From Plumapathes pennacea (Eukaryota > Cnidaria > Anthozoa > Antipatharia > Myriopathidae), in assembly GCA_964036295.1 (NCBI GenBank), contig OZ038471.1, forward strand, positions 5,020,001 through 5,084,000: 64,000 bases of DNA, in the 5' to 3' direction. This document shows, piece after piece, positions 193-63,470 of this stretch. The first letter of the stretch is position 1, and each line of letters starts with the position of its first letter. A program made the position numbers and the translations under genes. Below the pieces are notes generated by a model. It was given only the letters and a program-made list of their open reading frames with translations. It made no database searches and was not told the origin of the DNA.

Positions 193-3100
193 TGGCTGCG
201 CTTTTACAACAGGACGTAGTAGCGCTTATTGATGGGCACCACTCTTCTGATTCCGCATGCGTGCTCAGCATGTTCACGGAGATACCGCTGATTCGTCTCC
301 ATGGAAACCGTGACCACTGGAGCCAGTGTGAGCACGTGGGCGTGACACTGTCTGCAAATTATGAAAGTTACGCTCGGGCCACGGTGCAGCTTTTGAAGAC
401 TTTTCATTGGTCTAAAGTTGTGATTCTGTATGAAGGTAAAATAATAGATAATCACAGTTGTATAAGAGAGGTTCATAAATACAAAGCCAATTTAATTATA
501 GCACAAATCACACAAGAGGTAAGAAACACTTCGAAGTAACCACAATCCTGGCCAAAATGCGTGGGACACTTAGCCTTATTATGACACTTTCCCTCTTCCC
601 GCCCCCCTCCCACCTTACATGTTGAATGAATGTGCTCAAAGTGCACTCCCTTTAAGCAAAATTGTATGGGGGTGGGGGGGGGGGGGGGGGGAGGACTAAG
701 TTTCGGAAAAGGAGCCGCTTCCGTTGTTCAACAAGGAGTGGTGGTGAAAACATGGCATTCTTTCAGAGTGTCCCACATACTTTCGGCCAGGATTGCAGAA
801 GCCAAAGTAATTTTCGATTGGTCTTACTTTGAAGAGACCAAGAGAATGAATGTACGTGAAATGGGGAAACATTTCGAACATAAGAAAAAGTAGTGAACTG
901 ATATTCTTGTTCATCTAAGGTTTAGCTGATGAAACATTTTTGTTTTTAGAGAGCTTTACCCAAGAGGCGCACTATTATGATACTATCATCGACAGAGAGA
1001 AAACCAAAGTTCATCACCTGAAGCTGTACAAACAACGAAATGAGGCCGCGAACGCCGCAGTGACAAGAACAGTAAAGAGGTTGAATACCTTAAACGCCAG
1101 AGTTGTTCTTCTGTTCGCGGGAGAGCTGTATCAACGGAAGCTGCTATCGGAGGTAGGAGCTAAATGATGTGAAGAAGATTAAAATATGTAATTATTTACT
1201 CAATATTTAAATACCATATCTGAACAAAAACGTAGAAAACGAAAACGAAAAAAGGAAGGAAAGGGAGGGGAGGGAAGAGAGTGGGATATCGTTGACTACA
1301 GAGTGTAGGGTTTGATAACTGCATTCAAAAATGTATAGCACAAAAATAGAAACAGGAAAAGAAGAAACTAAAACAATCAATAAAGAAATAAGAGACTATA
1401 AAACACAACTTTCTTTACAACCTATTTCCAGGAAAACAACACTGTGCATGGAGAGACGAGAGAATTTATCATTACCAGAAAGATGTATCAGTTTAGCTGA
1501 GTTATAAAAGCTACGGATCGACACTATTTCGTTTTTCTCTAACGATACTTTGTAAATCGGTTGCCTAGGAACACTGTAATCCTGCTCAGTATCACGTTTG
1601 GATATTTCAAGGCGAGGTAAGAGCACTTTAGATTGGCGAGTGCCGTACTACGGTTTAAACTGCTCACTTATCTCTAATGTTTACGCAAAAATTTTACCTC
1701 ACTATAAAAGTTTTTGGCCAAATTACACTTTATAGTGCAAGTAATTTAGAAAAAGATTAACCTAAACTTGTTTTGAACACGCCCAGTTGTTCAAAGCCCG
1801 ATTAAGCTAATCCATAATTAACCAATTTATTTTCCTTCGTCCTTTTGGCCAACAGACTGCAAGATTTTGTTCAGAGTCTAAATAAAACGCTTCTTTTAGC
1901 TTAAAACCTATCAAGAACGTCCTTTGAACAACCGAACCAAGTGTAACATATCTATGTTGTTTCTCCATGATCTTTCTCAAGATTCCCTTCAACCTCACAG
2001 CACATCCAAATGACATGATTGTTGGCTTTCGGCTGCCTCGAGAGAAAACCCAGACATCAGCAGACTATGAAGCTAGTCTGCAATCAAGTGCAAGCGGTGG
2101 AAAGACTGACCTACTGTCATTAAAGGTATAGCCGAACAAATATGCAGTACCTAAAGAGACCACGAGAATCTTGCCAATATAGCGATGAGCTGGTAGTTCA
2201 TATATAAATATGTATGAAGAGTATGTCGGGTAGGGACTATATAAAAGTGCGAACTGTGCACTTTGACCTTTACTTTCGACTTTTGCAGGACAGAGTTGTG
2301 CTGGGGAACGAAGCTGGCCAAGTACTTGCACAGGCTCTCACCGATATGTCAAACGAAAAAGGCTGGGTACAAATGATTAACGGCACGCCGCAGTATGCTC
2401 CCATTTCTAACAGAATATCACTTTTGAAACATTTAAAGAAGGTATGCATGTGTTCTTGGGAGTGAAAGGCTTAAAACAGTAAAGATGGTATAAGCTGATG
2501 TTTCGAGTGTATGTGACGTACACAGTTGCTTTACATAACACTAAATTTGACCAAATGTGATGAAACAGCAGCTTCCAATGAAAGCCTTCAAAGTGTGCAC
2601 TTATAGCCCATAGCACTATAATTCCAAGAAATCCGTGAAAACTAAGCGAGATAACAAAACAAGGAAAAATTACTCTGCTCTTAGGTTCGTCTCCATGGAA
2701 TAACTGGAAGTATTCAGTTTGATGAAAACGGTTTGCGACCTTCCACCCAGCTTGATGTGATAAATTTACAAAATTATTCCCTTGCTGAGGTTAGTAGTTT
2801 CCGTTTCCTTCAAGTACGTACAACAACGCTAGAGAGACGTGTAAGGCACACGAAGAATAGTGACGTTATAATTACTTGTGATCAAGTCGATCGGTTTGGA
2901 CGCGCTTAATTTCAAGTCTTAATCACGTTCCGTAAAATTCAATTAACAGGTTGGATCATGGATCTCAGGGAAACTGACTCTCACACAAGATTTGTTAAAT
3001 GATCAAGTAAACGATAGAGGGGCTCAAACGTTGGAAGGAAAGCGACTCAGGATAGTTACAGTGGAGGTGAGCGATGGCCTGAGTTATTTCAACCAAGTGT

Positions 3101-6100
3101 CTCTCCTTTTAATGCATAGTCAGCTGTATGTAAAAAATAGCCAGCTACATCTTATTTGTGAATTCATCTGTCGCGTAGTTTTGGATGGGTTAAGTACAGT
3201 TAGGACCTTAGGTACAGGCGTTGAAATTACGAAGGAGCTCTCTCAGCCAAGTCAATGTTTTTATCTAGATCTACATTTGCAAAAGTGATCAACACCAGAA
3301 TGGTCATATCGCAGGCGCTCATTTCTCGCCCTTTCTCATTTAGACGTCCCCACCCCTTCCCCCTCCTCCGCAGAAAGAGAGAACAAGGTTTTATCTTGCC
3401 CAGAGTTGCTTCAGCCAAGTGTCTCTCCTTTTAATGCATAGTCAGCTGTATGTATAGCCGGTTATACCTTGTTTGTGAATTCAAGCTGCATGGTCAGACT
3501 GTACAATTTTCCTAGCATGCATTTGTCGCGTTTTTATCTACAACTGTGTAAAAATACCAAGGCTGAATTTGGTTCTAAACACCAGAAATCGTAATAGATC
3601 GATGCGAAACAAATTGGTAAGTAGCACGTTTAGGCCAAAAGAGACTAATCTTTTAGTCAAACGAGTCGGATGGAAAATGGTTGCTAATTAATCCTGCTTT
3701 GAACAACTTCAAAAGAGATTGAAATACGATGGATTCTCCTACTCCACTGTATTCTTGTCTACTATATGTGATATTCATTCCAATCCTGACTTTTTTAACA
3801 TTTGCAACACCAACACCAATTTAACTTTTGCAACATCAACACCAGAATGGTCATACCGCAGGTACTCACTTTTCAATCTCACTCATCATTACGCCCCCCT
3901 CCCCTGGAACAAGGTTTTATCTGGTCGACTTTTCTCGATTAATTTTCATTTCTAACAAGCCATTCTTGCTGTTTTTCTTTTCCATCATTACTCAACCAAG
4001 GCTGCTCCTTTTGTGACCAAGACAGCTAGTGCTGGAACGAACGGCACTAAATACGAAGGTTACTGCATCGAAATTCTCGACAGACTTGCATCGGAACTGA
4101 AGTTCACCTACGAGATTAGGACGTCTAGGGATGGGGCTTACGGCGCCAAAGTCAACGGCGTGTGGAACGGCATGATCGGGGAACTTATCCGCGATGTATG
4201 GCCTCATTCTGCTTTAGTTTGATCTACCTTTAGTTACGTTCATTTTCGTCTTGGAATAGATAACTTAATCAGTGAATCTAGGCCGTGTAGTTGCGGGATT
4301 CTTGACCAAGACTTAGCCAAGAAACTCAAAACTTAAATTCGTTACTAAAGTATAAATTAGTTCAATAACATAAGTGGCGCAAAAAATGAAAAAAAAAAAA
4401 CCAGTCTTGCACACGAGGTGAAGGTAATGACGATGACGATGGCCGCTGACCAACGGAACTGTTTCCGCGGGTGCTTTTTTTTTTTTTTTTTTTTTTCAGA
4501 AAACAGATATGGCCGTTGCAGCACTGACTGTTACAAATGAAAGAGAGGAAGATGTGGATTTCGTTGCGGCTTACATGTACACAACAACAGATATGATCTT
4601 GAAGAAAAACTTTGTGCAAGAGACAGATTTCTTGCAGTTCATGATGCCCTTCCAAATTGATGTCTGGATCATGGTCTTGGTTTCCCTGATGGTCTTGACC
4701 TTAAGCATTTTCACGTTGAATTACTGCAGTCCTTATGGATATAAAAATGAAGACGGCAAAGGAACGTCGCCAGAGTTTAACCTGTTCAACAGCTTTTGGT
4801 TCGCGTTGGCCTGTATGCTCCAACAAGGAGGCGATAACACTCCAAGATCCGTGTCAGGTATTGAAAATGTACATGAACATTAAAAGCGGTGAACCCAATT
4901 ATTAACCCTTTGAATATACATAAAGAAACTGGTCCGGTTGGCACTGCAAAAATAGACGAGTTTTCGACTTCGTGAAATTCCTCTTTTCCAACTTTTGTAA
5001 AACTTTTTTTTTATGACGATGACTTATTACAACGAAAAAAAGAACTAGTTTTCATAAGAAAGGCTTTTATACAATGGGCCTCTTTTGAAACAGAGGCAAC
5101 AGACATATCGAAAATGGCCTATTTTAAGTGACCAAAGTTTATGAAAGACTTTGACGTACTTTGAAAAGTGTGAGCAAAAAATACGAACAACTGACATCAG
5201 AGCACAGAACATAATTCCTCGCAAACTTAACTCTATCTGTAATCAATCAATTAATTAATTAATTAATCAATTAGCTGATTAGCTCTGTTTGTTTCAGGCC
5301 GCATCTTAACAGGTTGTTTCTGGTTCTGCATTCTGGTTTGGGTTTCCACGTACACCGCGAATCTTGCTGCCTTTTTCACTGTCAAAAACGAGAAACTCCC
5401 GATCAACAACCTGCAAGACGCACTCAAGTCTGACTACGATATTGGAGTATTGGAGTCATCCTCCGACCACAATTATTTCCGTAATAGCAAGTTAGAATTC
5501 TTTCAAAAAGTCTGGAAACACATGGAATCAAAGAACACATACGCCAAAAATTCCGTGGAGGCCTTGGAGAGGGTCCGTAAAAGAAAATACGTCTATTTGT
5601 GTGATCGTCGGTACATAGAGTATATAGCTGGACAAAAGCCTTGTGATCTCACCACACGTAAGTACACCCTCATTTTTGATTCTCGTGTGCCTCATTGCAA
5701 CCATGTTGGTGGTCTTAACTAACTCTTCTACAGCATGCCGTAAGTGTTAACATTGTTCCAGCGCCAATGAATATTGGACATCAAATTGCAATTGTAGCCA
5801 CTAAGTTCTTTGAAATTTAGCCTGAAGGTGTGATGAACTCAAATCGATTAGCCTTCAATGAGTTCCTTCTGACAGCTGTGTTCAGGTTATTGCCTAGTTT
5901 AGGTTAAACTGTTAAAAGGGAAACTAATTTTTCTTCTTTGGGTGTTTTCATTCAAGTTCCAGGTCTGACTAAGGAAGATTCATTGAGCTTTGCTCTCCAG
6001 GCCAATGACCCTCGTGTGAAGGAAATCACACTTGCAATGTTGCGCATGCGTCAAGATGGTTTCTTTGAGTCGTTACATCGGAAATATTGGAAGAATGCAA

Positions 6101-7937
6101 ACAAATGTTCTCAAACAACTGCGATTGGTGAGTTATTACCAAAGACTGGCACATTCTATCCAACATGAGCAAAACATATTGATAAATTGTATGTTTTTTT
6201 CAGGACTATTGCAACTGCTTAAATTGCTTCATAACTGTAAGGGTCGCTTTCACTATCATGCTGATAAATGTGTAATTGACTGGAAAATACGACAATCACT
6301 AAAAATAGACATTGCAGTATAACATACAAAGCATGAAAACTATTACCTGCATCCTGATTGGAAGCTGTTGAAACTGATCACTGACAATCACTGAGCTTAA
6401 ACTTGTGGATGCATAAATTATGAGGGGGACAAAACGTAAACAAAATATTCGTAAATTTATCGTTATTTACATGTGTGTGGTATACTATGGTCGTACTCGT
6501 TATTATCTAATATTGTGTTTACATTTTAGCTCGATATAGTTTGAAATTGGTTTTGGAACCCAAACCAACGCCTGAAACGTTTCTGAAAATATACAGCGTT
6601 TGAATCGACGAGAACATAGAGGTCAGACAAACTTTATAACACAAATATGAATCGCGGGCAATCAAATGGAAATTATCTGTGATGGGGTAATGGGGACAGG
6701 TTTTCTTCATTAGATCATGCCTTTATTTCGCTATCCTCCCAAAATAATGAAGTAGTTCAATTTGTGTGTATGTAAGCAAGCAATCGCAGATCATATCTCT
6801 GACCATCTGGGCAAGAAGATATCTCCAAATATTGTATTGCTAGTCTAAAACTATCCTTACCTTGTTTGTAAAAATCGGATCGAGAAGGTGAGTTGTACCC
6901 AGTGGATATACTCTGACACGTTTGGTCGACTCAAAAGTTTCCTCGATATTCGAACTGTTTCACACGTTTGCTGGTAAAACCCAAGAGTGGCGTAGCCATC
7001 CATGAATGACGCTTGCTTTGGGGTTTCCTTTGGGCTCTCTTGGGTCGGTAGATAAATATACGGCTCTCCCAATAAAGTAGCCATTTCTTTCACGTGCGGC
7101 CGCCATGTTTACAGCCAAGCAACCGCGCAATCTTAGATGATACGCTGCTGTACCGCGAACTGAAGGCTCACGTAAATCGTCACACGGTTCGGTCTGACCA
7201 CACAAGTGATAACGGCGTTTTCTCGCACTGTAAATTAATACTCTTCTCTTCAAAGTAAAACAGTGCAAATTATCGGTTTAGTTTCTGGCTGATCGAATGA
7301 ATTTTCTAACAGATGTGTCACGCCGGCGCGGCAATTTAGTTGAAAAGTCAATGACAACCGCTTCGTAGTTATGCGTTCAATGGTCTTCAATGTTTATATG
7401 CCGACCATGTGCCCCGTTATCAGTCGTTAGATGCTTCCTTAGACTCCTTACCCTCTTCCACTATATTGTACATCCAGGTATCTGTCTTTATTTAAAAAAA
7501 ATAGCAACAGTCCATGAAATGAGACATAAACTAACTGGGTATTTCATTCACAAGATAAACAATTTGTCTCTTGCAGTTTCTGGCAAGCAGCGGATTGGTC
7601 TGACAAGTTTGGCAGGAGTATACATCGTTCTTGCTGTCGGACTGTTCCTGTCCTTCGTTGTGTTGGGAGCAGAAATTATGTTTTTCAACCGGGGAACAGA
7701 AAAGGCCAAGTGAGGAAAATATTAATCACTGTCTCCATAATAAATGCCTTCCATGAAAATCCCACAAAACTTCCTTATAAGGGAAGACAAGCCTTTCCTT
7801 CCTAACTTAGTTTTAGTCTTTTTTTTTTTTTTTTTTTTTTTTTTTGTTCTTCACTTGTAAGGGGGATCTATGGATCTGACCAAGACAACCAGGATGACGA
7901 CAGTCCTTACGATTTACCGGCTGTAATTTCACAGTGA
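193..7937 (+). CDS. iGluR subunit gene A (5' partial)
   Basis: Ionotropic glutamate receptor subunit, a ligand-gated cation channel of the plasma membrane. Exons read from the sequence: 193-435, 950-1152, 1569-1616, 1982-2125, 2289-2441, 2685-2789, 2950-3066, 4001-4195, 4500-4857, 5298-5657, 5957-6127, 7577-7709, 7862-7937. All introns are GT-AG and the frame stays open through every join to TGA 7935-7937. By comparison with gene B, the signal-peptide exon and one further exon lie left of the window. The first seven exons encode the ATD, exon 4001 gives S1 (KYEGYCIE), exon 4500 gives S1-M1-pore ([18 protein letters not shown]), exon 5298 gives M3 and S2 (TYTANLAAF), exon 5957 ends S2, and exon 7577 is M4. 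The last exon is a short acidic tail ([15 protein letters not shown]). The acceptor before 4001 has a weak pyrimidine tract, so that boundary is the least certain. Gene B is its closest paralogue. Subfamily unknown. Confidence 0.9.
7121..7576. other. Highly conserved CpG-rich intron block (gene A copy)
   Basis: Intron segment directly before the M4 exon of gene A. By eye it differs from its partner in gene B (19674-20131) at about 7 of 455 positions, while the following M4 exon differs at about 11 of 133. It contains CpG-rich stretches (cgccggcgcggcaa) unusual in this AT-rich window. Function unknown: regulatory element, internal promoter or gene conversion tract. Confidence 0.6.
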
Positions 7938-8098
7938 ACACACAGTTGACAGCAGCCGGCGGCAAACTAGCTTCAAACTGAAGAACGATATAATGCCCAT
8001 CACAGTGTACTTACATTGACAATGACATAATGCTTATCACGGTGTAGTTACATTGCCAGTGTCAATGCTCTTAACGTGTTAAAGGAATTCCTTATTAA

Positions 8099-8620
8099 AA
8101 GTTCCTATAAGCCTTCAGACGTTACGTTTTTATATGAAAGTAGGAAGTGATCTAAGCAACTTATATTCAAAGAAACTCCGTTCCGAAGCGTTCTTATACT
8201 TTTTTCACGCGGTTGAACTCAGAATTCCGAAATCTTGACCGAGCGACATGGGAGACTGGGTCTGTAACGTCAGAGAAGGCACTGGCATCGCTTTGGCGTC
8301 TCTTTACCTTAGTTGTTTTTTTCCCTTGGTTACGTTTTTCTCGACAACACATCTATGAGCATAATTCTCACCTCGTCAACTGCAAAATCTGTGTGAAAGT
8401 TTTGTTTGGCAAGAAACGAATCCCTCCTCTGACGTCATAGCCCAGGCTCTCGATCGAAAAACTTTGCGCGGTCAGATTCAAAATGGCGGTCAAAATCGCA
8501 TGTTTGCCGGGCGGAAAAATATATAAAAACGCTTCGGAGCGGAGTTTCTTTGGCCATACGTTGTTTAGATTACTTCCTACTTTCATATAAAAACGTAACG
8601 TCTGAAGGCTTATAGGCACT
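8099..8620. mobile_element. piggyBac-like MITE, copy 1
   Basis: 522-bp element flanked by TTAA at 8095-8098 and 8621-8624. Inverted ends of roughly 100 bp: the left begins with cctataagccttcagacg and the right ends with cgtctgaaggcttatagg. The matching place after gene B (near 21090) reads gtttaacaaattacattc without it. A TTAA target duplication is the piggyBac hallmark. No transposase frame, so non-autonomous. Confidence 0.85.
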
Positions 8621-8647
8621 TTAACAAAATATACATTCAAATTCCGG

Positions 8648-8950
8648 TACCTTTCCCGACAGATGGAAAACGGCCAAGACTACAACAGTTCGTAAGGGTA
8701 ATGCCAAGAATGATCCAAATAACTACGGACCAATTTCTGTTCTTCTAATGGTAGCCAAGGTCTTTGAAAAAATAGCTTTTGACCAACTTCGTGCATACTT
8801 GAAAACCAATAATATCCTAACTAAAATCCAATTTGGGCCGGTTTTCGGTCAAAACACTCAATTCTAACAGCTTTGCTATCTGCCACGGAAGCTATACTTC
8901 TTAAAAAGCGTAACTAATATGGTATTCAGTGAACCCTTTTTAATTAGTTT
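8648..8950 (+). pseudogene. LINE reverse-transcriptase remnant
   Basis: Frame starting at 8652 gives a stretch with WKTAK, NDPNNYGPISVL and VAKVFEKIAFDQL, matching the start of the reverse-transcriptase domain of CR1/L2/jockey-type non-LTR retrotransposons (PNNYRPISxLxxxxKxFEKxxxxQL). The frame stops at 8865-8867, and a one-base shift upstream restores the pattern, so it is broken and inactive. Confidence 0.85.
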
Positions 8951-8958
8951 GCTTCATA

Positions 8959-9397
8959 CCCGGGGGGGGGGGGGGGGGGTACTCCCATATATAAGCCATA
9001 TAGGTATGTGCCGCCCCAAACAGTATCGTTTTCAAGCATCTTTAGTCTGAAATAGGGTATCGATTTTGCCTTTTTGGTCTGAAATAGGGTATCGACTTTG
9101 TCTTTTTGGTCTGGGATAGGTATGACTTTAACAGAAATATGTCGCCGCGGACATTGCACGGCAAATGTAAGAAAACACAGCGGAAATCGTTGCAAAAGAA
9201 CAAAAAATCTCTAAACAAAGGTCTGAAATAGGGTATACATTTTGGAGTCCGGTCTGAAATAGGGTAATACATTTTAGGAGTCAGGTCTGAAATAGGGTAT
9301 AGAAAATCAGGTATTTTGGTCTGAAATAGGGTAAGGGTTTTCAGGACCGGGCGGCACACCCCCACCCAAAATTATAATGAGTGCCCCCCCCCCCGGG
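8959..9397. mobile_element. GC-capped element with GGGTAT repeats (hAT-like), copy 1
   Basis: Begins cccggggg...tactcccatata and ends cccccccggg, with repeated units of the type ggtctgaaatagggtat inside. Flanked by cttcata at 8952-8958 and 9398-9404, a 7-8 bp target duplication as in hAT elements. It sits inside the older LINE remnant. Confidence 0.8.
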
Positions 9398-9404
9398 CTT
9401 CATA

Positions 9405-11252: not shown

Positions 11253-14200
11253 ATGAAGCAAGCGGCTTTTATTGCAAAGCTGGTTACATTCCTTGCAGCT
11301 TCTTTGTTTCTGGAACAATGTGCAGCGCAACCCAAAGTCTTCTACGTCGGTAAATAAACTAAGATTTTTAAAATTTCATTTCAAGCTTGTTTTGTGCCCA
11401 ATTGCCTTTATGTCTATGTTGACTAACTTAACCGTATTCTTTTTGTTATAGAGCTTGTGGACATCACCGATGACTTGGAGATTGCCTCGCTGAACTATGC
11501 CATAAACAAGGCTAATGGTAACACCTCAAATCAGGGCAACAACCCGTTTACTCTAAAAATCGCCAATGATTCGCAACACAAGGATCTTTACCAACGCGGT
11601 AAGCCATCGTCCACCCAAATAAAAAAACGAAATCGTTTTCTGATAAACAACGATCCATTTTCAGCCTTTTCGAAAGAAACTGTATGAGTGACGTAGTGAG
11701 AGTTTATAGTTAAATCAGCTTTCATCTTAGCAAGGTATCAAAAGCTAAATTCTCCTTACTGTATGATAAATATTTATGATGAGATACTGAAGGAGATAAT
11801 TAGAGTCATGTGATCACCCTTGGGAGTGAAAGGGTAAAACTGACGAACAGAGACCAAGATGGCTATGTAAAGTAAAAAAACTTACTGAGCGATCTTGGTG
11901 TTGCAGCGGCTGCGCTTTTACAACAGGACGTAGTAGCGCTTATTGATGGGCACCACTCTTCTGATTCCGCATGCGTGCTCAGCATGTTCACGGAGATACC
12001 GCTGATTCGTCTCCATGGAAACCGTGACCACTGGAGCCAGTGTGAACACGTGGGTGTGACACTGTCTGCAAATTATGAAAGCTACGCTCGCGCCACGGTG
12101 CAGCTTTTGGAGACTTTTCATTGGTCTGAAGTCGTGATTCTGTATGAAGGTAAAATAATATATTATCAGAATTATATTAAGAGGTTTATAAATACAAAGC
12201 AATATTAATTATAGCACCAATCACACCAGGGGTAAAACACTTTAAACTAACCAGAAGCCAAAGTAACTTTTGATTGGTTTTACTTTGAAGAGACCAATCA
12301 GCACTTGCTTGTTTGCGTGATCAGACCGCAATTGGGTTTTGAATAGTTCCTGATTGGTCAAGAATGCTGCTTAACTTGTTCTGGCCAATTCAAAACCGGG
12401 AAAAAAATCCCTGGAAGTAACGGTTCAAATCTCACCTAAAAGACCGCCAAAAAAACGTCTGGTACCCAGGATAGCAAGGCCGCAGTTAAATCAAACATTA
12501 TTTTCTTTAAAGAAACATACAAAATAAGCCCATTTCCGACTAAATGAATGTACGTGAAATGGGAAAACATTTCAAACATGAGAAAAAATGTTCATGATAT
12601 ACTTGTTCATCGAAGGTTAAGCTGATGAAACATTTTTGTTTTTAGAGAGCTTTACCCAAGAGGCGCACTATTATGATACTATCATCGACAGAGAGAAAAC
12701 CAAAGTTCATCACCTGAAGCTGTACAAACAACGAAATGAGGCCGCGAACGATGCAGTAACAAGAACAATGAAGAGGTTGAATACCTTAAACGCTAGAGTT
12801 GTTCTTCTGTTCGCAGAAGAGCTGTATCAACGGAAGCTGCTCTCGGAGGTAGGAACTAAATGATGTGAAGAAGATTAAAATATGTAATTATTTACTCAAT
12901 ATTCAAAATACCATATCTGAACAAAAACGTAGAAAAAGAAAACGAAGAAAGGAAGGAAGAGGAGGGGAGGGAAGGGGCTGGATATCGTTAACTACAGAGT
13001 GAATGGTTTGATAACTGCAATCGAAAATGATTAGCACAAAAATAGAAACAGGAAAAGAAGAAACTAAAACAATTAATAATAAAAAAAGAGACTATAAAAA
13101 CACTACTTTCTTTCCAACATTTTTCCAGGAAAACAGCACTGTGCGTGAAGAGACGAGAGCAATCACCATTACCAGAAAGATGTATCAATTTAGCTGAGTT
13201 ACAAAAGCTACTTTTTGACACTATTTCGTTTTTCTCTAACGATACTCTTTAAATCGGTTGCCTAGGGACGCTGTAATCCAGCCGAGTATTACGTTTGGAT
13301 ATTTCAAGGCGAGGTAAGAGCACTTTAGATTGGCGAGTGCCGTACTATGGTTTAAACTGCTCACTTATCTGTAATGTTTACGCAAACATTTTACCTCACT
13401 GTCACGTTTCTATGGCCAAATTACACTTTATAGTCCAAGTAATTTAAAAAAGGATTAACCTAAACTCTTGTGTAACAGATCTATGTTGTTTCTCCATGTT
13501 GTTTCTCAAGATTCCCTTCAACCTCACAGCACAGCCAAATGACATGATTGTTGGCTTTCGGCTGCCTCGAGAGAAAACACAGACATCTGCAAACTATGAA
13601 GCTAGTCTGCAGTCACGTGCAAGCGGTGGAAAGACTGATCTACTGTCATTAAAGGTATAGCCGAACAAATATGCAGCACCTAAAGAGACCACGAGAATCT
13701 TGCCAATATAGCGATGAGCTGGTAGTTCATATATAAATATGTATAAAGAGTATGTGAACCTTGACCTTTACCCCTCGGGTAGGGACTATATAAAAATGCG
13801 AACTGTGCACTTTGACCTTCACTTTCGACTTTTGCAGGACAGAGTTGTGCTGGGGTACGAAGCTGGCCAAGTACTTTCACAGGCCCTCACCGATATGTCA
13901 AACGAAAAAGGCTGGGTACAAGTGATTAACGGAACGCCGCAGTATGCTCCCATTTCAAACAGAATATCACTTTTGAAACATTTAAAGAAGGTATGCATGT
14001 ATTTTGTTTAGTTTTAGACTGCGCGAGCTAGCTCTGTGACCTTTGTGAGGCATATGACTGTGTGTTGTCTGTGTGCGCACGCATGTATATGTAAGCCCAA
14101 GGTTGGTGTGGATATGCTTAACCCTTCCACTCCCAAGCTCAAAATACAAACTCTCCTAACCTTTGAAGAAGGAAATGCATGGGTGATGTAGTGAGAATCA

Positions 14201-17200
14201 CATATATTAATCAGTTTTCATCTGAGCGATGTATCAAAAGCCAAGTTCTCCTTGATGTAATGCTCAGATCAAAACTGATTACAGTATATCTCTGGTGAGA
14301 AAACTGAAGGAGAAAATTCAAGTTGAACACTCTTGGGAGCAAAGGGCTTAAAACCGTATAAAGATAGTACAAGCTGATGTTTCGAGTGTATGTATGTGAC
14401 GTACGTTGCAGCTGTTTTACATAACACTAACTTGACCAAATGTGATAAAACAGCAACTTCCAATGCAAGCATTCGAAGTGTGCACTTGAAGCCCATAGCA
14501 ATATAATTCCAAGAAATTCGTGATATTTGAACGAGATAATAAAACAAAGAAATTACTTTCCTCTTAGGTTCGACTTCAAGGAATAACAGGAAGTATTCAG
14601 TTCGATAAAAACGGTTTGCGTCCTTCTACCCAGCTTGATCTGATGAACTTACAAAATAATTCCCCTGTTAAGGTTAGTAGTTCCGTTTCCATCAAGTGCG
14701 TTTTAGTTATATGTACAACTACCATATAAAATGTCAGCAGGGACGAAGGCTGGAAAGAGACGTAGAGAGATGTACAAGGCACAGGGAGAATAGTGACGAT
14801 ATATTTACTTGTGATCAAGTTGTTAAGATTGGACGCGCTTAATTTCAAGTCTTTATCACATTCCGTAAAATTCAATTTACAGGTTGGGTTGTGGATCTCA
14901 GGGAAACTGACTCTCACGCAAGATTTGTCGAATGATCAAGGAAACAATCAAGGGGCTCACAAGTTGGAAGGAAAGCGGCTCAGAATAGTTACAGTAGAGG
15001 TGAGTGTTGGCTTGAGTTATTTCAGCCAAGTGTCTCTCGTTTCAATGCATAGTGAGCTGTATGTAGAAAATAGCCGTTTTTATTATATAAACACGAGACA
15101 GTGTTTTACTGGAAAATATACCGTGCGTAAAATCCATACGAAACTACATCCGGGACCCGAGTGGCATATTTTCCATATCCTCACTAGTGAGGATATTGTT
15201 GGCATCATTTCCCGCTATTCCACGGTTGTTTGTGCAATTTCTCGTAAAACACTCGTGTCTAATATAATAAAAAGAAAATTACACGGCGGCTTGAAGATAT
15301 GGATTTTATTTTCTCGTGATAAAAACAATATTTTACTCGCGAAGCGCTCGTTCGTAAAATATTGTTTTTACCACTGGAAAATAAAATTCATATCTTCGCG
15401 CCGCCGTGTAATATCCTCTATATATTACCTTGTTTGTGAATTAAAGCCGCATGGTCAGACTGTCAATTTCCCTGGCATTTGTAGCGTATTTTTGGGTGGG
15501 TTTAAGTACAGTTAGAACCTCGGGTACAGTTGAAAGCACGATTACGTAAATCCTGGGTTTCCTCAAAGTCTTGTCTTCAAGAGGCTCTCTCAGCCAATTC
15601 AGTGTTTTTAGTCAGACGAGTCGGATGGAAAATGACTGCCAACTATTCCAGCTGTGAACAACTTCAAAAGAGATTGAAATATGATGGATTCTCTTATCCC
15701 ACTTGTCAATGTGATACTTTCCAATGCTGACTTTTCGTAGCATTTGCAAAATTGATCAACACCAGAATTGATCAACATAAATACCGCAGATACTCACTTT
15801 TCGATCTTACTAATTTAGATGTCCCTCCCCACCCCCACCCAACCCCCACCCTCCTCCTCCTCCGCAGTAAGAGAGAGTGGAACAAGGTTTTATCTTGGTC
15901 GACTTGTTTCGATTCATTTTCATTTCTAACCAACCATTCTTGCTGTTTTCTTTTCCATCATTGCTCAACCAAGGCTGCTCCTTATGTGATGAAGATTGCT
16001 AATGCAAAAACGAACGGCACTAAATACGAAGGTTACTGCATCGAAATTCTCGACAGACTTGCATCGGAACTCAAGTTCACCTACGAGATTGGACCGTCTC
16101 CGGATGGGGCGTACGGCGTCAAAATCGAAGGCGTGTGGAATGGAATGATCGGTGACCTTATCCGCAATGTATGACCTCGCTCTGCTTAGTTTGAGCTACT
16201 CTACGTTAATTTTCGTATTGGCATAGATATGTCAATCAGTGAATCCGTTTAATTGGCGGATTCCCGTAAAAACATAAACATAAACAAACAAACAAAAAAT
16301 AAAAAAAGCACACAATATCTTCGAGGCAGCAGTTTTTTAAGCATTCAAGCATTCAGTACATATTCAAGTGAAGCTTTTGAAGTTTGTGCAACGCTTGTAA
16401 GACCTCAAGACTTAGCCAAGAAACTCGAAACTTAGATTCGTTACTAAAATATTAATTAATTTAATAACATAAGTTGCGCACACAAAAAAAAAGCGAGCCT
16501 TGCACACGAGGTGAAGGTACATGGTAATGACCATGACCGCTGACCAACGGAACCGTTTCCGCGATGCTTTTTTTTTTTTTCAGAAAACAGATATGGCCGT
16601 GGCAGCTCTAACTGTTAACAGTGAGAGAGAGGGAGTTGTGGATTTCACTGCGGCTCACATGACTATACAAACAGATATGATTTTGAAGAAAGATTTTGTG
16701 CAGGAGACAGACTTCTTGCAGTTTATGATGCCCTTTAAAATTCCTGTCTGGATCATGGTCTTGGTCTGTCTGTTGGTCGTGACGTTATGCATTTTCACGT
16801 TGAATTACTTCAGTCCTCATGGATATAAAAATGAAGATGGCAAAGGAACGTCGACAGAGTTCAACCTGTTCAACAGCTTTTGGTTCGCGTCGGCCTGTAT
16901 GCTCCAACAAGGAGGTGATAACACTCCAAGATCCGTATCAGGTATTGAAACAAATATGATAAAAAAGGGTGTGTACCCAATTATTAACCCTCTGAATATA
17001 TATAAAGAACTGGTCCGGTTGGCACTGCAAAGCCAGACGGGTTTTCGACCTAGTGGAAATCTCCTGCCCCTATTTCCCAATAAGGCATCATGCGAAACTC
17101 TTCTTGTGACGATGATTTATTACAACAAGAAAACGAACTTAGTTTTCATAAAAAAAAGCTTTGATGCACTAGGTCTCTTTTTGAAACGTAGGCAACAGAC

Positions 17201-20200
17201 ATCTCGAAAATGGCCAATTTTTATTGACCAAAGGTTATCAAAGACCTTGACGTAGTTTGATAAGTGTTAGCAAAAAATACGAACAACCGACATCAGAGCA
17301 CAGACAATCTATAATCAATCAATCAATTTATCAATTAATCAACCAACTAGCGGGACCCCAGTAAAATACGGTGATCAGAAATTTTTTCTTTTTGTTTTCA
17401 TTTTTTCTTCCTTTTTTCCTTTTTGAAGTCCATTTCAAGCATCTCGAATGCAGTTTACAGTGTCAATGTACAAATTTCTCTGCAGTGCGTGTACCACTCG
17501 ACGAATTGCCGATCGATCGACATGAAAATCTCCCCGTTTTTCGAACATGCGGAAGCATCAGCCCGACATCCAGTCACCTGACAGCACAAATTCCCTTTCT
17601 AAACTCATTTTCGATTTCTAAAAGAACTGTGGTCGGCACATGAGGCCAATATTTATACTTAGTTTCACTCGATGTGGCGGCCATCTTGGATTTTTTTATG
17701 AGGAGGCCTGGGAAAGAGCGTTGCAGACGGACGGACAAAAGTGAGTTAGCGTATTATTACAAAGACTGGCTGATTATATCTGTTTGTTTCAGGCCGCATC
17801 TTAACAGGTTGTTTCTGGTTCTGCATTCTGGTTTGGGTTTCCACGTACACCGCCAATCTTGTTGCCTTTTTCGCCGTCAAAAACGAGAGACTCCCGATCA
17901 ACAACCTGCAAGACGCACTCGAGTCTGACTACGATATTGGAGTATTGGAGTCATCCTCTGACCACGATTTTTTCCGTAACAGCAAGTCGGACTTCCATCA
18001 GAAAGTCTTTAGGCACATGGAATCAAGGAAGACATATGCAAAAACTAACGCGGAAGCCTTTGAAAGGGTCCGAAAAGGAAAATACATCTATGTGACTGAT
18101 AGTCCATACTTAACCTATATGGCCGGAAAAAAGCCTTGTGATCTCATCACACGTAAGTACAACCTCATTTTTGTTTCTCGTGTGACCTCATGGCAGCCAT
18201 GTTGGTGGTCTTTATCCAACTCTTCTACAGCGTGCCTTAAGTGTTAACATTGTTCCAACGGACATCAAATTGCATTGTAGCCACGAAACATTCGACTCTA
18301 CTGGCACACCTTTAAGGGAGCCTGACTAAGTTCTTTACTTTTAACCTGAAGATGTGATGAACTCAAATGAACAAGCTTTCAATGAGTACCTTCTGACAAC
18401 AGTGTTCAAGTAGTTAAACTGTTGGCAATGAAAAAGAAAAGTAATTTTTCTTCTTCTGGTGTTTTCATTCAAGTTCCAGCTCTGACTATTGAAGACTCAT
18501 TTGGCTTTGCCCTCCAGGCCAATAACCCTCATGTGAAGGAAATCACACTTGCAATGTTGCGCATGCGTCAAGAGGGTTTCTTTGAGGCAATGCACCGCAA
18601 ATGGTGGGAGGGTGCAAACGAATGTTCTCGATCAGCTGGGATTGGTGAGTTATTAGCAAAGACACTCACTGGTACATCTTATCTGACATGAACAAAACAT
18701 ACTTGATAAATTATATATTTTTTCCAGATTATTGCAACTGCTAAAACTGCTTCATAATTGCTAATTACTTCATAAATGATAGTAAAAGTGACCCAAAAAG
18801 GGTCACTTTTACTATCATGCTGATAAATGTGTTATTGACTGGGAAATATGGCAATCACTAAATATAAACTTTGTATATCTATATATACAAAGCATGAAAA
18901 CTATTAACTGCATCCTGATTGAAAACTGATCATTGACAATTGCCGAGCTTAAACTGTGGATGCATAAATTATCAGGGTGACAAAACATAAACAAAATATT
19001 CATAAATTTATCGTTATTTACATGTAAGTGGTATGTTGGGGTTGTAATCATTATTATCTAAGACTGTGTATACATTTTAGCTCGATATAGTTTGGATTTG
19101 GTTTTGCAACCATTAAAGCAACACCTGAAACGTTTCTGAAAATATACAGCGTTTGAATTGAAGAGGTCATAGGGGTTAGACGAATTACTTATAACACAAT
19201 TATACACATATCAAATGGAAAATATTTGTGATGGGCTAATAGGGACAGGTTTTCTTTTTTAGATCATGTCTATATTTCGCTATTTACGTCCCAAAATAAA
19301 GTTAAAGTAGTTCAAATTGTGTGCATGCAAACAAGAAATCGCAGATCATATTTCTGACCATCTGGGCAAGGGGGTTATTACAAATATTGTATTGCTAGTC
19401 TAAAAATATTCTTACCTTGTTTGTAAAAATTGGATCGAGAAGTTGAGTTGTACCCAGTTGATATACTCTGACACGTTTGGTCGACTCAAAAGTTTCCTCG
19501 ATATTCGAACTGTTTCACACGTTTGCTAGTAAAACCCAAGAGTGGCGTAGCCATCGATGAATGACGCTTGCTTTGGGGTTTCCTTTAGGCTCTCTTGGGT
19601 CGGCAGATGAATATATGGCTCTCCTAATGAAGTAGCCATTTCTTTCACGTGTGGCCGCCATGTTTACAGCCAAGCAACCGCGCAATCTTAGTTGATACGC
19701 TGCTGTACCGCGAACTGAAGGCTCACGTAAATCGTCACACGGTTCGGTCTGACCACACAAGTGATAACGGCGTTTTCTCGCACTGTAAATTAATACTCTT
19801 CTCTTCAAAGTAAAGCAGTGCAAATTATCGGTTTAGTTTCTGGCCGATCGAATGAATTTTCTGACAGATGTGTCACGCCGGCGCGGCAATTTAGTTGAAA
19901 AGTCAATGACAACCGCTTCGTAGTTATACGTTCAATGGTCTTCAATGTTTATATGCCGACCATGTGCCCCGTTATCAGTCGTTAGATGCTTCCTTAGACT
20001 CCTTACCCTCTTCCACTATATTGTACATCCGGGTATCTGTCTTTATTTAAAAAAAATGGCAACAGTCCATGAAATGAGACATAAACTAACTGGGTATTTC
20101 ATTCACAAGATAAACAATTTGTCTCTTGCAGTTACTGGCAAGAAGCGGATTGCTCTGAGAAGTTTGACAGGAGTATACATTGTTCTTGCTGTCGGACTGT

Positions 20201-25106: not shown

Positions 25107-25138
<32 letters not shown>

Positions 25139-31361: not shown

Positions 31362-31364
<3 letters not shown>

Positions 31365-36570: not shown

Positions 36571-36601
<31 letters not shown>

Positions 36602-41137: not shown

Positions 41138-44100
41138 TCAAACTTCAGGCTGACTCACATTAGCCTGGAAAGAAAGAAAGAAAAAAAAAAGTGACGTCAT
41201 GGCGGCCATATTGGATGATATTAGTAAAAGATTGCTCATCAGCCTCAACATGGCTGCAATGTCTTTGTATTGCAAAAACTGCTCTAAAATCATCACGGAA
41301 CTACTAGAGTATGGCGTTGGCTAATTTTTAGCGGTATAAGGCCTTACCTTCTCGTATGCAATCTCCGAACGTATTTCCTCTTCTTTCCTTTGTCTTCTTT
41401 TGTGCCAATAAATTTCCCCCCCAAGAACAATAAAGGATAAAAGAAGTCCTCCTGACAATACAGTATACACGCCGGCCATGCTCTCCAGACCGATTCGCTG
41501 TCCTGACAAAGCTACAAACAAAGTGGTGAGGTGGTGAATCTTAACCCTATCACTCCCAAGTTCAAAGTACAGATTCTCTTAACCATTCAAGAAGAAAATG
41601 TGAGAGATGTGGGGAGAATTAATATTTTAATCAGCTGTCATCTTAGCAAGCTATCAAAGCCACCTTCTCCACAATGTAATGATACATCTTTGGTGAGAAA
41701 TTGAAGGAGAAAATCAAAGTTGATCACTCTTGTGAGTGAAAGGGTTAAAGGTTAGCCGCTCATCGAGTGCGTATCGGGCGTCGAGTATCGAGTATTCGTA
41801 AACGGGCGAGCGAACATCGAGTAACGACCGAGTAAAATTTTGGATCGAGTGATTATCGAAACAAAGAAAAACAAAAGGTTATTGTTTGATGGCCAGAGTC
41901 TAATATCGAACTGCCTAATGCTCTTCGTTGTATAAAAGATAAATTTTCGAAGCGTTCGATGCGAGATACAATCCCCATGAAAGTACATGAAAATTAAATG
42001 TAACTACAGGCCATGCCACACGCACGAGGCAATTTGTCTTTAAGCTTGCAACGGCACCCCCTGCTTATAACTTGCAACGGAACAAAAAAGCTTGCTAAAT
42101 AAGTTGGAGTTACAGTTGAACAGTCTCCTACTTTTCACGACGTTGCGTGCTCTTGTTGAATCGTGTGACATGTACTATGCAACTTGTCCCGCGACACAAG
42201 TTGCAAGAAAAATTGCCTCGTGTGACATGGTCTCAACATGGGAGGGGTTTTCTGTTTTTCGTTACTTACAATCTCCTTTTTTCTTCGGGCAATTATTTGC
42301 GTTATCCCACCAAGTCCGACGCAACTGATCCAGGTATCCTTTTTCTTGAAGGCTGAGTATCTCAAGGGAAATCTCCTTAACATGAGGGCTGTTGGCTTGA
42401 AGAGCAAAAGCGAAACCCTCTTCCATACCCAAGAGTGAAACTTAGAGAGAGAAAGCCAAAAACAATAACATCCTCATCATTGCATCATTGCATCAAGCAT
42501 TGACATTTATGGGATATATGAATACAAACTATGCAAAATAGGACATAGCAGATTACTAGAAAGTTGATTAGAAATATATTATGGCTTGGATTTTGGACAG
42601 AGATTAGGGGTGCGTTCGATTGGATCTGTTCTGGAATACGAAGAGCTAAAATGTTGCGTGGAAAATTTAGTTCGAAATTGTTTTGAAAACCTTCATACTG
42701 ACATTGCGAACGGCTACCATTGCATCTTTATCCAAGTCAGCTCCCAACCAAAGAATTTTTACCGATCAACATCACTAATCCTATTTCGCGCCCTAGATGA
42801 ATGTGAATACATGTAGTGTAAATGTATTGACTCTGTTCCAAGACGAGGCCTTATACGAAACCTTTCTTATAAAGAAGTAGCCTGCGTAGCGGCCTCGAGG
42901 GACTGGGAACTAGCCTCGAGAGACTGGGAACTAGGAGGGGAGGGAAGGCCTTCCCTCCCCTCCTAGTTCCCAGTCCCTCGAGGCTAGTTCCCAGTCCCTC
43001 GAGGCCGCTACGCAGGCTAATAAAGAAGAGTTTAACTTGCACGAAAGAAAAACTAAATTTCATAAGAAAAAAATTCGCACTGGGGCTCTCCCGTCCCAAT
43101 ACAAAGAAAACGTATGGATGATATAGTGAGAATTGATTGTACAATCAGCTTTATCTGAGCAAATTATCAAGTAGCAAATTCTCAGTACTGTATCATATAT
43201 CTCTCATGAGAAATTGAAGGAGAAAATATAAGTTGATCTTACGTGCTACCAGGTCACACGGCGGTTGGTTTTCTTCGTATATCATAGGTGGCTGTGCGTC
43301 AATGTAAATATAATTTTTCTTTCGTACCAACTCTATTGCTTCTGCCTCTGTATTGGGAAATGCTTTTCGCGTCCACATACGCGTCCAAGCTCTTTGGTAC
43401 AGATCATACTTGCTATTCTGGAAGAAAGAGTAATACGCGGTCGAGTTGACTACACTGATAGTGTATTCTTCAGAGTTAAGCGCATCTTCCAAGTCTTTAA
43501 TCGGCTGTTCAGCATTCTTGACAGTTAAAAAGGCAGCAAGGTTCGCTGTGTACGTGGAAACCAAGATCAGAATGCAAAACCAGTAGCAACCAGCCAAGAC
43601 ACGACCTAAAGAGAAACGTGTAAACAACAACAAAAAAAGAAAACACAAACAAATTATTATGCTTGTAATTTATCAACTGTATAAGGGTTTATACGGTGAA
43701 AAACGCTATCCACTCTTTCAACAACTGGACCCAGCTGTCCATTTTTGTTTTCGTCTTATTCCCTTCTCTCCTAATGCAGTTTGATTTGACAGATGTTTTG
43801 ACTATCGCCATAACATTTCAATTTTATTTTATTTTTACAACTTTATTAGCTAAAGCTACAAAACTAATTTGTTACAAAATTCTTACAAAATTCAAAATAA
43901 GTAATTAAACAAGTACTAAATAAAAGAAATAAACACACACGCACATAAAGTAAATACCAGCCCTCGCGTAATCTCGAAAAGAGGAAGAAATCAAGAAATG
44001 CCCAAATCTACGTAGTCATTTACAGTGTATTCAGTCATGCATCCGCACGTTTTTCCAAGAAATCCAATTACAACATTTCAGTTCTTACCTGACAGCGCCC

Positions 44101-47053: not shown

Positions 47054-47084
<31 letters not shown>

Positions 47085-60200: not shown

Positions 60201-63200
60201 CTTCCAGTTTTGGGGCATCACCTGTCAGCTCTATGTTTTGTCGAAGGTCTTTGTCCATAAACAACTTAGTCGATTTCCATGTGCCAATCTGGAATAAAGT
60301 TGTAATATTGTATCATCCGTCTTATCTATAATTTTTTTTTATAATTTTTTTTTTAGTATGTTAGTTTTTGCCCCCATCTCTTGCGGTGTTAATTATCTTT
60401 GTCTGATTCGGTCCCTGGATCGGCCCCTGTGTCGGTCCCTGCCGTTTTTTAAGATGTTTTATTTCACAGAAAAGCTTCAGATTTTCAAATTTTAGAATAT
60501 TTCCCGGACTGTTTTGAAATTAGTGGGGGAGTTTATCGCAAATCTGCTCACCTTAACGAAGGAGTTGTTCTGAAGGTTCATCACATCAAGCTCAACAGAA
60601 CTTCTCAAACCAGCCTCGTCAAATTGAATCATTCCAGTGATTCCTTCAAGTTGAATCTGAAAAATAATTGGGCAATAATGTTTAAACAATAGATAAAAGT
60701 GCCCATCCAAGTGTTTTGCTCGTAGCTCTATTTGAGAAAATCATGTGCACTGAAACGTAAAACAAATCTAATTTGTAGGTGAACACGTAAACTTACCTTT
60801 TTTATTTGACTTCTTAGGGCCATCCTGTGTGATGCACTATTAGACAGTAGTCCCCAGTCTTTTTTCTTGGACATAAAGACGAGGGCCTGGGCAACAACCT
60901 GAGCTGCATCATGTGCGAGGACAACATTTTCCTGTGAAAACATAATGAACACAACTATGAGATAAGGTGGATAGCAAGCGCAGATTGCTATCATTTACCA
61001 GCTCAAGTGCCTATTTTCTGCGTTCTAGTGGGAGTCAGAGACCAAGGAATTTTGGTTGAATCTACCCTAGGAGTCTGGGTCTAACCCTAACTAACTCCGC
61101 CAAAAATGCCAAGAGTGATGTGTTCTCAATGGCAAGTTTCACTGGATGCTCGAGTAACTTGAAAAAAAAAAAAAAAAAAAAAAAAACTAGAAACATTAAA
61201 AAGAGAAATAAGTTCTCTTTTTATGGTGATTTTTGTAAAGTTCGTAATTGGTGTATGTCTAAATTTCACTCTTGTTTTTGATTGGAAACTTTCCAATGTT
61301 ATAAGCGTCTGATTTGTGACTAGTTGCGCTGTAAATGGCGGTACAGTGGGCTGAACCTATCCGGTTTTTAACGTTGCATTAAAGTGCCTATAAGCCTTCA
61401 GACGTTACGTTTTTATATGAAAGTAGGAAGTGATCTAAGCAACTTATATTTAAAGAAACTCCGTTCCGAAGTGTTCTTATACTTTTTTCACGCGGTTGAA
61501 CTCAGAATTCCGAAATCTTGACCGAGCGACATGGGAGACTGGGTCTGTGACGTCAGAGAAGGCACTGGCATCGCTTTGGCGTCTCTTTACCTTAGTTGTC
61601 TTTTTTCCCTTGGTTACATTTTTCTCGACAACACATCTATGAGGCACAATTCTCACTTCGCCAACTGCAAAATCTGTGTGAAAGTTTTGTTTGACAAGAA
61701 ACAAATCCCTCCTCTGACGTCATAACCCAGGCTCTCGATCGAAAAACTTTGCGCGGTTAGATTCAAAATGGCGGTCAAAATCGCATGTTTGCCGGGCGGA
61801 AAAATATATAAAAACACTTCGGAGCGGAGTTTCTTTGGCCATAAGTTGTTTAGATTACTTCCTACTTTCATATAAAAACGTAACGTCTGAAGGCTTATAG
61901 GCACTTTAAGCGGTTCTACATACCAATAGAAGAATATATTAACCATACCTTTAGCGAAAAGATGTCAGTCACAGCGTTGTTAAACATTGATTTCAAACCC
62001 TCCTCGTATTGCTTCGACTTCTGATTAAGTTTGCGAGGCAAACGGAAACCGACCACTTTGTCCGCAGATGGGGCTGTGATGTTCAGAGGAAACTGGAGAG
62101 ATAGAGGGATAAATAAAAGTATCACGCAGTTCTCAGTCTTGGGAAGACCTAGAAATACTCATGACGTCAGACCAAGTTTAGCGTAAGAGTTAGCTTCACA
62201 ACAGTTCGACTGGAAACTCTATGTAAGCTAAATCTAGTGACTACTACAGACAATGAAACAACAACTAACTTACGTGGGTTTGAAAGATCCATACAAAGTT
62301 TTGGATGTGATCACAGGGTCGCTTCTAAAAATGGAAGTTTGAGAGTGATAAAGTTTATCATTTTAGTTTATCTATACATAACTTGCATGCATTTAATCGT
62401 GAAGGCAATATTTCTTGCCTCTGAGAGTAGCTTGTGTCGATACATCCCTTCTGCGTACAAGGCAACAACGTTTATCTTCAACTTTGATAGCTCATTAATT
62501 GCCTTTGACACAACGCTGTCCACTGACTCGTTTCCATATTGATGAAGTTGAATGGTATGCACAGTAGTTTTCTCCTTGTTAATGAATGTCTGGAAGTGAG
62601 ATGCCTCGTAGCCATAACTCGCTGAGTAAACATAAAATATATAAATTAGCTTTGAATGAATAGAATCACTAATACACATAAACACATCATTACATTTGTT
62701 AAATTGGTAAACGGAAAACCGCATGGTATAATACTTTTGTTATAGAAACTTGGAAACTAGATAATCTGTTTTTCCAGACAAAAAACCATTAAAAACAAGA
62801 GTCGGTTCAGCTTGTCTTGTGTACCTACCTTCATATAAAACCGCAACTTTGGACCAATGAAAAGTCTCCAGTAGCTGTACCGTTGCACGAGCGTAGCTTG
62901 AATAACTCGCAGACAGTGAAACACCCACGTGTTCACACTTGCTCCAGTAGTAATCGTGATTACTATGGAGACGGATCAGCGGTATCCCTGTGAACATGCT
63001 GAGCACGCATGCGGGGATGTTAGAATCATGCTGTGCTTCGATAAGCGCCACCACATCCTGTTGTAAAAGTGCTGATGCTGCGAAAAAACAAACAAACAAA
63101 CAAACAAACAACAAAAACAAAACAAAACAAACAAAAACAAACAAACAAAAAAAAACAAAAAACAGATGCTTGAATATTCGACAACTGGTTGGCCTGTAAA

Positions 63201-63470
63201 CGTTAAAGGATTTCCAATCCTGGTGGTACACTGACCCGGGCTCGTGTAAACAAGGCCGCCTAAATACTGATATGTGCCTATCATATGTGAATGATAGACT
63301 ACATTGTATAGAAGCCGACTTACTGTAGTTAAACAGATCCTTCTGCTGTGGAGCGTGACGACGTTTGAGGACAAATGCATTGTTTATCTGCTTCGAGGTG
63401 TTTTTATTGCTTTGTTCCAAGGCATAATTGAAAGATGCGACTTCAAGTTCACTGCTGGAGTTCTGCAGTA
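54231..63470 (-). CDS. iGluR subunit gene E' (recent copy of E, 5' partial)
   Basis: Tandem duplicate of gene E, reading frame intact. Exons in transcription order: 63324-63470, 62829-63077, 62419-62621, 62274-62324, 61949-62092, 60797-60931, 60552-60656, 60172-60288, 59221-59412, 57052-57409, 56203-56565, 55364-55534, 54441-54604, 54231-54257; the signal-peptide exon should lie about 350 bases past the right edge. It shares the GC-AG intron after 62419. Amino-acid changes from E include S1 GPLAVTHERE (E: GPLSVTYERE), S2 NSTSYYSFF (E: NSTAYYSFF) and DAQPAM (E: DAQPPM). Several others fall in the last S2 exon (GTEESF for GMEEGF; NDPHVME for NSPHVKE) and M4 (FFVLVGE for FIVLGGE). No stop or frameshift was found, so it is probably functional. 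Introns contain a TTAA-flanked element and a 1.14-kb insertion absent from E. Confidence 0.9.
54634..54842. repeat. CACTCCCAAG-type MITE in E'
   Basis: Twin of 41541-41748 with almost no change. Confidence 0.85.
57566..58706. other. 1.14-kb block present only in E'
   Basis: Gene E reads gtaataaacaatattaac at about 44595-44612. E' has about 1141 extra bases between gtaataaac and aatattaac, starting tagattggccttgccagtga and ending ccaggcccccgcgagcaac, with aac on both sides. Contains a CACTCCCAAG-type fragment (about 57640-57800). Frames such as 58285-58566 show no known domain. Either an insertion in E' or a deletion in E. Confidence 0.85.
59745..60129. mobile_element. GC-capped element, copy in E'
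   Basis: Duplicate of 45635-46034, shortened at both homopolymer caps and near the right end. Confidence 0.85.
61383..61905. mobile_element. piggyBac-like MITE, copy 2 (only in E')
   Basis: 523-bp element begins agtgcctataagccttcaga and ends with its complement; flanked by TTAA at 61379-61382 and 61906-61909. Gene E reads gcattaagcggttc at 47273-47286, an intact single TTAA, so this insertion came after the duplication. Very similar to 8099-8620. Confidence 0.92.
63083..63162. repeat. (AAAC)n microsatellite, E'
   Basis: Twin of 48452-48530 with altered repeat units. Confidence 0.9.

Follow-up and report, generated by a model that had tools for sequence, protein, structure and literature searches.

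The 64,000-nucleotide window analysed here (positions 5020001-5084000 of a 16.9 Mb contig, labelled C10, in the 290 Mb, 24-contig genome of the antipatharian Plumapathes pennacea) holds part of a tandem array of genes that look like AKDF-type ionotropic glutamate receptors (iGluRs), with an amino-terminal domain, an S1S2 ligand domain and a pore. To judge from the pocket residues, the array probably encodes chemoreceptor-like channels whose pockets are tuned differently from one another, none of them glutamate-selective in the manner of AMPA and kainate receptors. Ten copies have ten distinct pockets at eleven published contact positions, with a median of 7 differences between copies. The ten comprise nine array models (g0-g5 and g7-g9) and a distant copy, g10; a pseudogene, g6, is left out of every count. 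Six of them, A, B, C, D, E and E' (g1-g5 and g7), lie in the window, g0 lies upstream of it, and g8 and g9 lie downstream.

Pocket residues and ligand rules

Residues are numbered as in GluA2. All genes were aligned with MAFFT, and A, C and E were also aligned pairwise to GluA2 chains with HMMER; the residues of B, D and E' are read from the multiple alignment only. An initial annotation of the window had read GluA2 positions 478, 480, 485, 654, 655 and 705 in the six window genes, and all 36 of its calls hold in the multiple alignment, with the alignment to solved receptors giving the same register for A, C and E, the three checked. Misalignment as the source of the pocket differences was rejected, because the MAFFT and HMMER alignments agree. 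Our first contact set had ten positions; the published list has eleven, adding 450, and the tests were repeated with eleven. In PMC12226733, 450, 478, 480, 485, 654 and 705 are backbone contacts, and 653, 655, 704, 708 and 732 are side-chain contacts.

Pocket residues at GluA2 450/478/480/485/653/654/655/704/705/708/732:
g0: YSTRSSNSDYL
A: YATRSSDCDYL
B: YATRSSDTDYF
C: FGSRSFTGDVL
D: FPTRSSYSDLL
E: FPSRTAYDAPF
E': FPARTSYDAAF
g8: YPTRNAYDDIL
g9: YPTRTSYGDLL
g10: YSTRSATENTL
C6b (same genome, for comparison): YPTRGATTEYY
C6a (same genome, for comparison): YATRGSLTDYY
GluA2 (for comparison): YPTRGSTLEMY
GluK2 (for comparison): YPARGATMETY
GluD1 (for comparison): YATRSAVWDVY
GluN1 (for comparison): FPTRSSVWDVF

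Arg485, which had been called constant in the six window genes, is the sole invariant among the eleven published positions in all ten copies. Even A and B, alike at the six positions first read, differ at 704 (Cys/Thr) and 732 (Leu/Phe). Because GluK2 has Ala480 and Ala654 and GluD1 has Ala478 and Ala654, variation at 478, 480 and 654 alone is not diagnostic, and 653, 655, 705 and 732 are more informative. Tyr732 occurs in no copy (0/10), and position 655 is Asp, Asn or Tyr in 8/10, Thr655 being kept in C and g10. Position 705, which is Glu in GluA2, GluK2 and C6b, is Asp, Ala or Asn in the array and never Glu. Seven of the ten copies combine Arg485 with an acid at 705 (g0-g4, g8 and g9, all Asp705). 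The other three lack that acid and have one at 704 instead: E and E' (Ala705, Asp704) and g10 (Asn705, Glu704). The g8 pocket is acidic at both positions (Asp704, Asp705), and this double acid may, on the residues, be a form between the 705-acid and 704-acid pockets. Contacts are normally the conserved part of the ligand domain, as GluA2, GluK2 and C6b show by being identical at 6/10 contacts versus 73/253 ligand-domain positions, and this is not so in the array.

What might the array sense? The full AMPA/kainate-type combination of Gly653, Thr655, Glu705 and Tyr732 occurs in 0/10 copies. The glutamate rule given in PMC12226733 (Gly, Ser or Thr at 653, Thr655 and Tyr732) likewise fits 0/10 array copies, whereas C6b, from the sister clade in the same genome, fits it and has Glu705. 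The glycine/D-serine rule in the same paper (Ser653; Val, Leu, Ala, Ile or Pro at 655; Phe732) also fits 0/10, and the suggestion of glycine as a ligand in the initial annotation thus finds no support in the published rule. That not all copies are glutamate sensors is supported by these residues, and it is plausible that Asp655 would repel an acidic side chain.

The pore is shared. The motif QQG.[DE] is present in 10/10 copies, with Gln at the Q/R site (Q586) and Asp or Glu four residues on (590), both consistent with AKDF receptors, and the M3 gate motif TYTANL is present in 9/9 full models. Each subunit has an amino-terminal domain, a clamshell S1S2, a re-entrant pore, an M3 gate and a fourth transmembrane segment (TM4), and the subunits most likely form tetrameric, calcium-permeable cation channels, since the architecture is standard and the Q/R-site Gln is followed four residues on by Asp or Glu. 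The most likely ligand is a small amino acid or a closely related compound, with its carboxylate held by Arg485. Asp705 would hold the ligand amino group in g0-g4, g8 and g9, an anchor that would be lost or shifted by one residue in E and E' (Ala705/Asp704) and in g10 (Asn705/Glu704). A different tuning of each copy is most likely because the side-chain positions 653, 655, 704, 708 and 732 differ between copies, and the array is perhaps used for chemical sensing.

A structure was predicted for the S2 exon of A by itself (122 residues, six sequences, mean pLDDT 68.6). Block means are 86 and 88 across residues 51-70, a helix starts at the residues aligned to 654/655, and the model matches AMPA and kainate receptor structures in Foldseek.

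Layout, gene models and family placement

The nine array gene models without an internal stop are spread over about 170 kb. Coordinates are those of the window, negative or larger than 64,000 where a feature lies outside it.

g0: array member upstream of the window, -13516 to -4652 (L010-L011)
g1 (A): receptor gene, + strand, exons 193-7710 in the window, spliced model with Pfam PF01094, PF10613 and PF00060
g1 (A), exons 1-2: -629 to -275, + strand, upstream of the window (in L011)
g1 (A), pocket codons: exons 4001-4195, 4500-4857, 5298-5657 and 5957-6127, + strand; TM4 exon 7577-7710
g2 (B): receptor gene from signal peptide to TM4, + strand, 11253-20265, spliced model
g2 (B), pocket codons: exons 15974-16168, 16584-16941, 17793-18152 and 18474-18644, + strand
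g3 (C): receptor gene, - strand, 30124-22469, spliced model
g3 (C), pocket codons: exons 25376-25182, 24484-24127, 23853-23494 and 23376-23206, - strand
g4 (D): receptor gene, - strand, 39212-32365, spliced model
g4 (D), pocket codons: exons 35038-34847, 34265-33908, 33819-33460 and 33003-32833, - strand
g5 (E): receptor gene with Ala705 and Asp704, - strand, 49724-41384, spliced model
g5 (E), pocket codons: exons 45301-45110, 44446-44089, 43605-43243 and 42440-42270, - strand
g6: pseudogene, 3' half-copy of C, - strand, 53568-52121, two in-frame stops, without amino-terminal exons
g7 (E'): near-duplicate of E, - strand, 63470-54477 in the window, exon 2 beginning at 63470
g7 (E'), exon 1: 64539-64452, - strand, outside the window
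g7 (E'), pocket codons: exons 59412-59221, 57409-57052, 56565-56203 and 55534-55364, - strand
g8: array member downstream of the window, 75712-85160 (L013-L014)
g9: array member downstream of the window, 140966-156085 (L019-L021)
g10: distant copy at 15.63 Mb on the same contig (L023-L024)

The models come from a spliced protein-to-DNA aligner written for this analysis, which penalises stops, disallows frameshifts and accepts only GT or GC donors and only AG acceptors; because of these constraints, the open frames and splice sites are to some extent imposed by the method, and a frameshift could be concealed in a short intron. Spurious exons of 6 bases occur where exons join (4418-4423 and 7166-7171 in A are examples) and are artefacts of the fitting. 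Exon 1 in the E, E', g8 and g9 models has no Met at its start, C-terminal tails and untranslated regions are excluded throughout, and the g10 model covers the ligand domain and pore only. The models of C6a, C6b and a further receptor, C3n, are rough, and the start of C6a is doubtful. The models of the six window genes, A to E', extend from the exon for the signal peptide through TM4, contain no internal stop and are 813-829 residues long; that they are evident pseudogenes was rejected on these open models. The six linked genes of the initial annotation therefore stand as models without internal stops, but a seventh locus, g6, and the array outside the window had been missed. A GC-AG intron after exon 4 is common to the g5, g7, g8 and g9 models, all other modelled introns being GT-AG.

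Pfam domains ANF_receptor, Lig_chan-Glu_bd and Lig_chan score above cut-off in both proteins scanned (A and E), and the other array models were fitted to the same exon series as these two (9/9). Among the best 60 solved-structure matches for each of A, C and E, the closest are AMPA receptors (E-values 1.7e-75, 1.6e-71 and 1.5e-79), followed by kainate receptors and, for C, delta receptors too; there are no NMDA chains among them. A maximum-likelihood tree of 18 sequences groups the ten copies in a single clade (bootstrap 100), with the C6 receptor pair of the same genome as its sister (99) and with GluA2 and GluK2 outside this group. The C6 pair forms a second receptor cluster (G000:C6:5316000-5355000), in which C6b has a glutamate-type pocket and C6a has Gly653 and Leu655. 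Because the best whole ligand-to-pore match of GluK2 in the genome is only 38% identical (L001), with shorter pieces up to 58%, no close AMPA/kainate orthologue turned up, which fits a non-bilaterian animal. The genome also carries a STING gene whose nearest matches are the sea anemone STING chains 5cfp/5cfo; a search for GFP-family genes gave no match, either in the genome or in its controls. The L001 match (G000:C2:665029-668874) lies inside a 995-codon open frame and so is intron-free over that stretch; it is possibly a retrocopy.

Two kinds of repeat were also seen in the window. Related inverted repeats at 8098-8624 and 61379-61909, with arms of about 110 bases and a spacer of 307-309 bases, are likely a small mobile element. 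Near-perfect palindromes lie at 42878-43019 and 20903-21024, with arms of 71 and 60 bases that are 98-99% complementary and a spacer of 0-2 bases.

Substitution pattern and alternative explanations

In two young pairs, E/E' and g8/g9, changes are about four times as frequent at pocket positions as elsewhere in the ligand domain. E and E' differ at 3/11 published pocket positions (480, 654 and 708) versus 10/243 others (p = 0.014), g8 and g9 at 4/11 (653, 654, 704 and 708) versus 26/242 (p = 0.030), and the pooled pairs at 7/22 versus 36/485 (p = 0.0013 with eleven positions, 0.00065 with ten). Codon partitions in IQ-TREE gave no readable omega, the ratio of nonsynonymous to synonymous rates (dN/dS), and our own codon likelihood was used on the ligand-domain tree, where omega is 0.28 for the ligand domain and 0.14 for transmembrane codons. 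Constraint on pocket positions is no tighter than on the remainder of the ligand domain, and the young pairs show an excess of pocket changes.

Several results weigh against differently tuned pockets or against the AKDF assignment. Omega for the eleven published pocket codons is 0.46, which is below 1 and exceeds that of random codon sets only weakly (permutation p = 0.085, or 0.097 with ten positions; without Arg485, 0.020 with nine and 0.089 with ten). The excess is clear only when positions 402, 650 and 686, which we take to be further ligand contacts, are added (pocket omega 0.58, p = 0.005). Between pairs of the ten copies, the mean difference per site is 0.596 at the ten contacts versus 0.464 elsewhere, which is not a significant excess (p = 0.10); the same test gives p = 0.020 when those three positions and 450 are added. 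Pocket enrichment is absent from the trio g0/A/B, whose pairs differ at 3/11 (g0/A), 2/11 (A/B) and 4/11 (g0/B) positions, with one-sided p = 0.48, 0.82 and 0.25. The tree node that parts the array and C6 group from NMDA-type sequences, GluN1 included, has a support of only 43, and AKDF membership therefore rests on similarity and pore residues. In the S2-exon model of A, block means are 60 and 37 around 704/705, and at such low confidence the model says nothing on the shifted acid.

The amino-terminal part of some pairs may have a history of its own. Silent differences between g0 and A number 20.5/285.5 sites in the amino-terminal part versus 58.3/269.3 in the rest (p = 7e-7), and between E and g8 81.5/276.3 versus 144.4/264.3 (p = 4e-9), with weaker signals in g0/B (p = 0.0065) and A/B (p = 0.067); no such homogenisation was found in E/E', g8/g9, D/g8 or B/C, four of the eight pairs tested. 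The TM1-2 segment of B and C is young, with a silent divergence (dS) of 0.26 versus at least 1.0 in their other segments, and corresponds to the A exon 4500-4857 and its equivalents in B and C. The lower amino-terminal silent divergence is consistent with gene conversion between 5' halves, or with their unequal exchange, either of which can give the amino-terminal domain of a gene another history than its ligand domain. A bolder proposal, which we put forward as speculation with little weight behind it, is that of a receptor-diversifying locus. Conversion or unequal exchange would keep the amino-terminal assembly domains alike for co-assembly, the pockets would be driven apart, and the amino anchor would have moved from 705 to 704 through a g8-like double acid, so that E, E' and g10 either hold the ligand anew or are constitutively open, ligand-blocked channels.

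The main rival to differently tuned pockets is relaxed constraint, in which the copies are auxiliary or redundant subunits of heteromers, a liganded partner gates the channel, and the pockets drift without a new ligand. We think it less than probable. A pocket omega that is raised and still below 1, the missing 705 acid in E, E' and g10, and the pseudogene g6 as a sign of copy turnover all agree with it, and partly homogenised amino-terminal domains in some pairs would favour co-assembly. However, Arg485 is unchanged in ten copies, and the transmembrane omega points to strong constraint, so the channels are not simply decaying. The g8/g9 pair, in which dN/dS is 1.11 in the ligand domain, 0.71 in the amino-terminal domain and 0.17 in the membrane segments, fits relaxation and selected change equally. 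The claim in the initial annotation that neighbouring genes sense different ligands rather than all sensing glutamate is thus borne out in that the pockets differ and none fits the glutamate rule, but its different-ligand part is inseparable here from relaxed constraint. Could all or most copies still be glutamate sensors with an altered side-chain pocket? This is improbable. Arg485 is kept, as is Thr655 in C and g10, and Ramos-Vicente et al. 2018 took nine receptors with 'negative polarity' residues at 653 and 655 as glutamate-binding candidates (PMC6307864), yet no copy has Tyr732 or Glu705, and eight of the ten have Asp, Asn or Tyr at 655.

A further alternative concerns the gene count. The block order, C-D-E and then a second C and E without D, points either to a block that was duplicated and suffered a deletion or to two haplotypes. 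That E/E' and C/g6 are haplotypes of a single locus placed one after the other in the assembly, and not tandem copies, seems unlikely to us. In its favour, the E and E' units are 94-98.7% identical where they align, introns included (the ligand domains are 95% alike), g6, which lies between E and E', is 95% identical to C over 1459 alignment columns, and the order is that of one C-D-E block followed by a copy of it lacking D. Against it, g6 has two stops and no 5' half, the E and E' units are set apart by insertions, the largest about 1 kb long, and the 16.9 Mb contig speaks for a contiguous assembly, though this excludes nothing. The haplotype reading is compatible with each of the others and does not affect how A, B, C, D and E differ from one another.

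Relation to known receptors

Gene families of this kind are known: the expansion of AKDF receptors in cnidarians has been published, as have cnidarian receptors whose pockets are altered and unpredictable. In the literature searched, no paper's title or abstract opening describes this array, a search for gene conversion combined with pocket selection returned 0 papers, and the word 'glutamate' is absent from the main texts of PMC10236652 and PMC12314368. If differently tuned pockets are confirmed, one genome would provide ten natural versions of one receptor in which the pore is shared and the pocket is not, including a pair, E and E', that is highly alike in the ligand domain yet has three contact residues exchanged. 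Rules linking pocket residues to ligand choice in the superfamily could then be tested directly outside vertebrates, and the array would supply candidate receptors for amino acid chemosensing in an animal whose nervous system is simple.

The expanded clade of cnidarian AKDF receptors in PMC12226733 has several paralogues and shares with the array the Gln at the Q/R site and the acid four residues on; the passages of that paper covered here contain neither so large an array nor its pocket table. The NMDA-Cnidaria class is like the array in having many changes at backbone and side-chain contacts, with a ligand predicted for two of its nine members, and 28/122 receptors of newly described groups were judged, by their residues, unable to bind an amino acid (both as described in PMC6307864). 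Unlike that class, the array has AMPA, kainate and delta receptors as its best solved relatives among the 60 best matches, with the separating node at the low support given above. Placozoan AKDF1 lacks Asp705, as do E, E' and g10, and has a constitutive leak current that is blocked by ligands, most by glycine (reported in PMC12226733, citing another study). At 705, AKDF1 has Tyr according to the same paper, whereas the residue is Ala or Asn in E, E' and g10, next to an acid at 704.

GluD1 (chain 9jrg) resembles g0-g4 in Ser653 and Asp705, resembles A and B in Ala478, and has no Glu705, but its Val655 and Trp704 set it apart from the array, where 655 is Asp, Asn, Tyr or Thr. The array is also reminiscent of the variant ionotropic receptors of insects, which are chemosensory relatives of iGluRs with divergent pockets; most of those receptors are without an amino-terminal domain, whereas the array genes have one.

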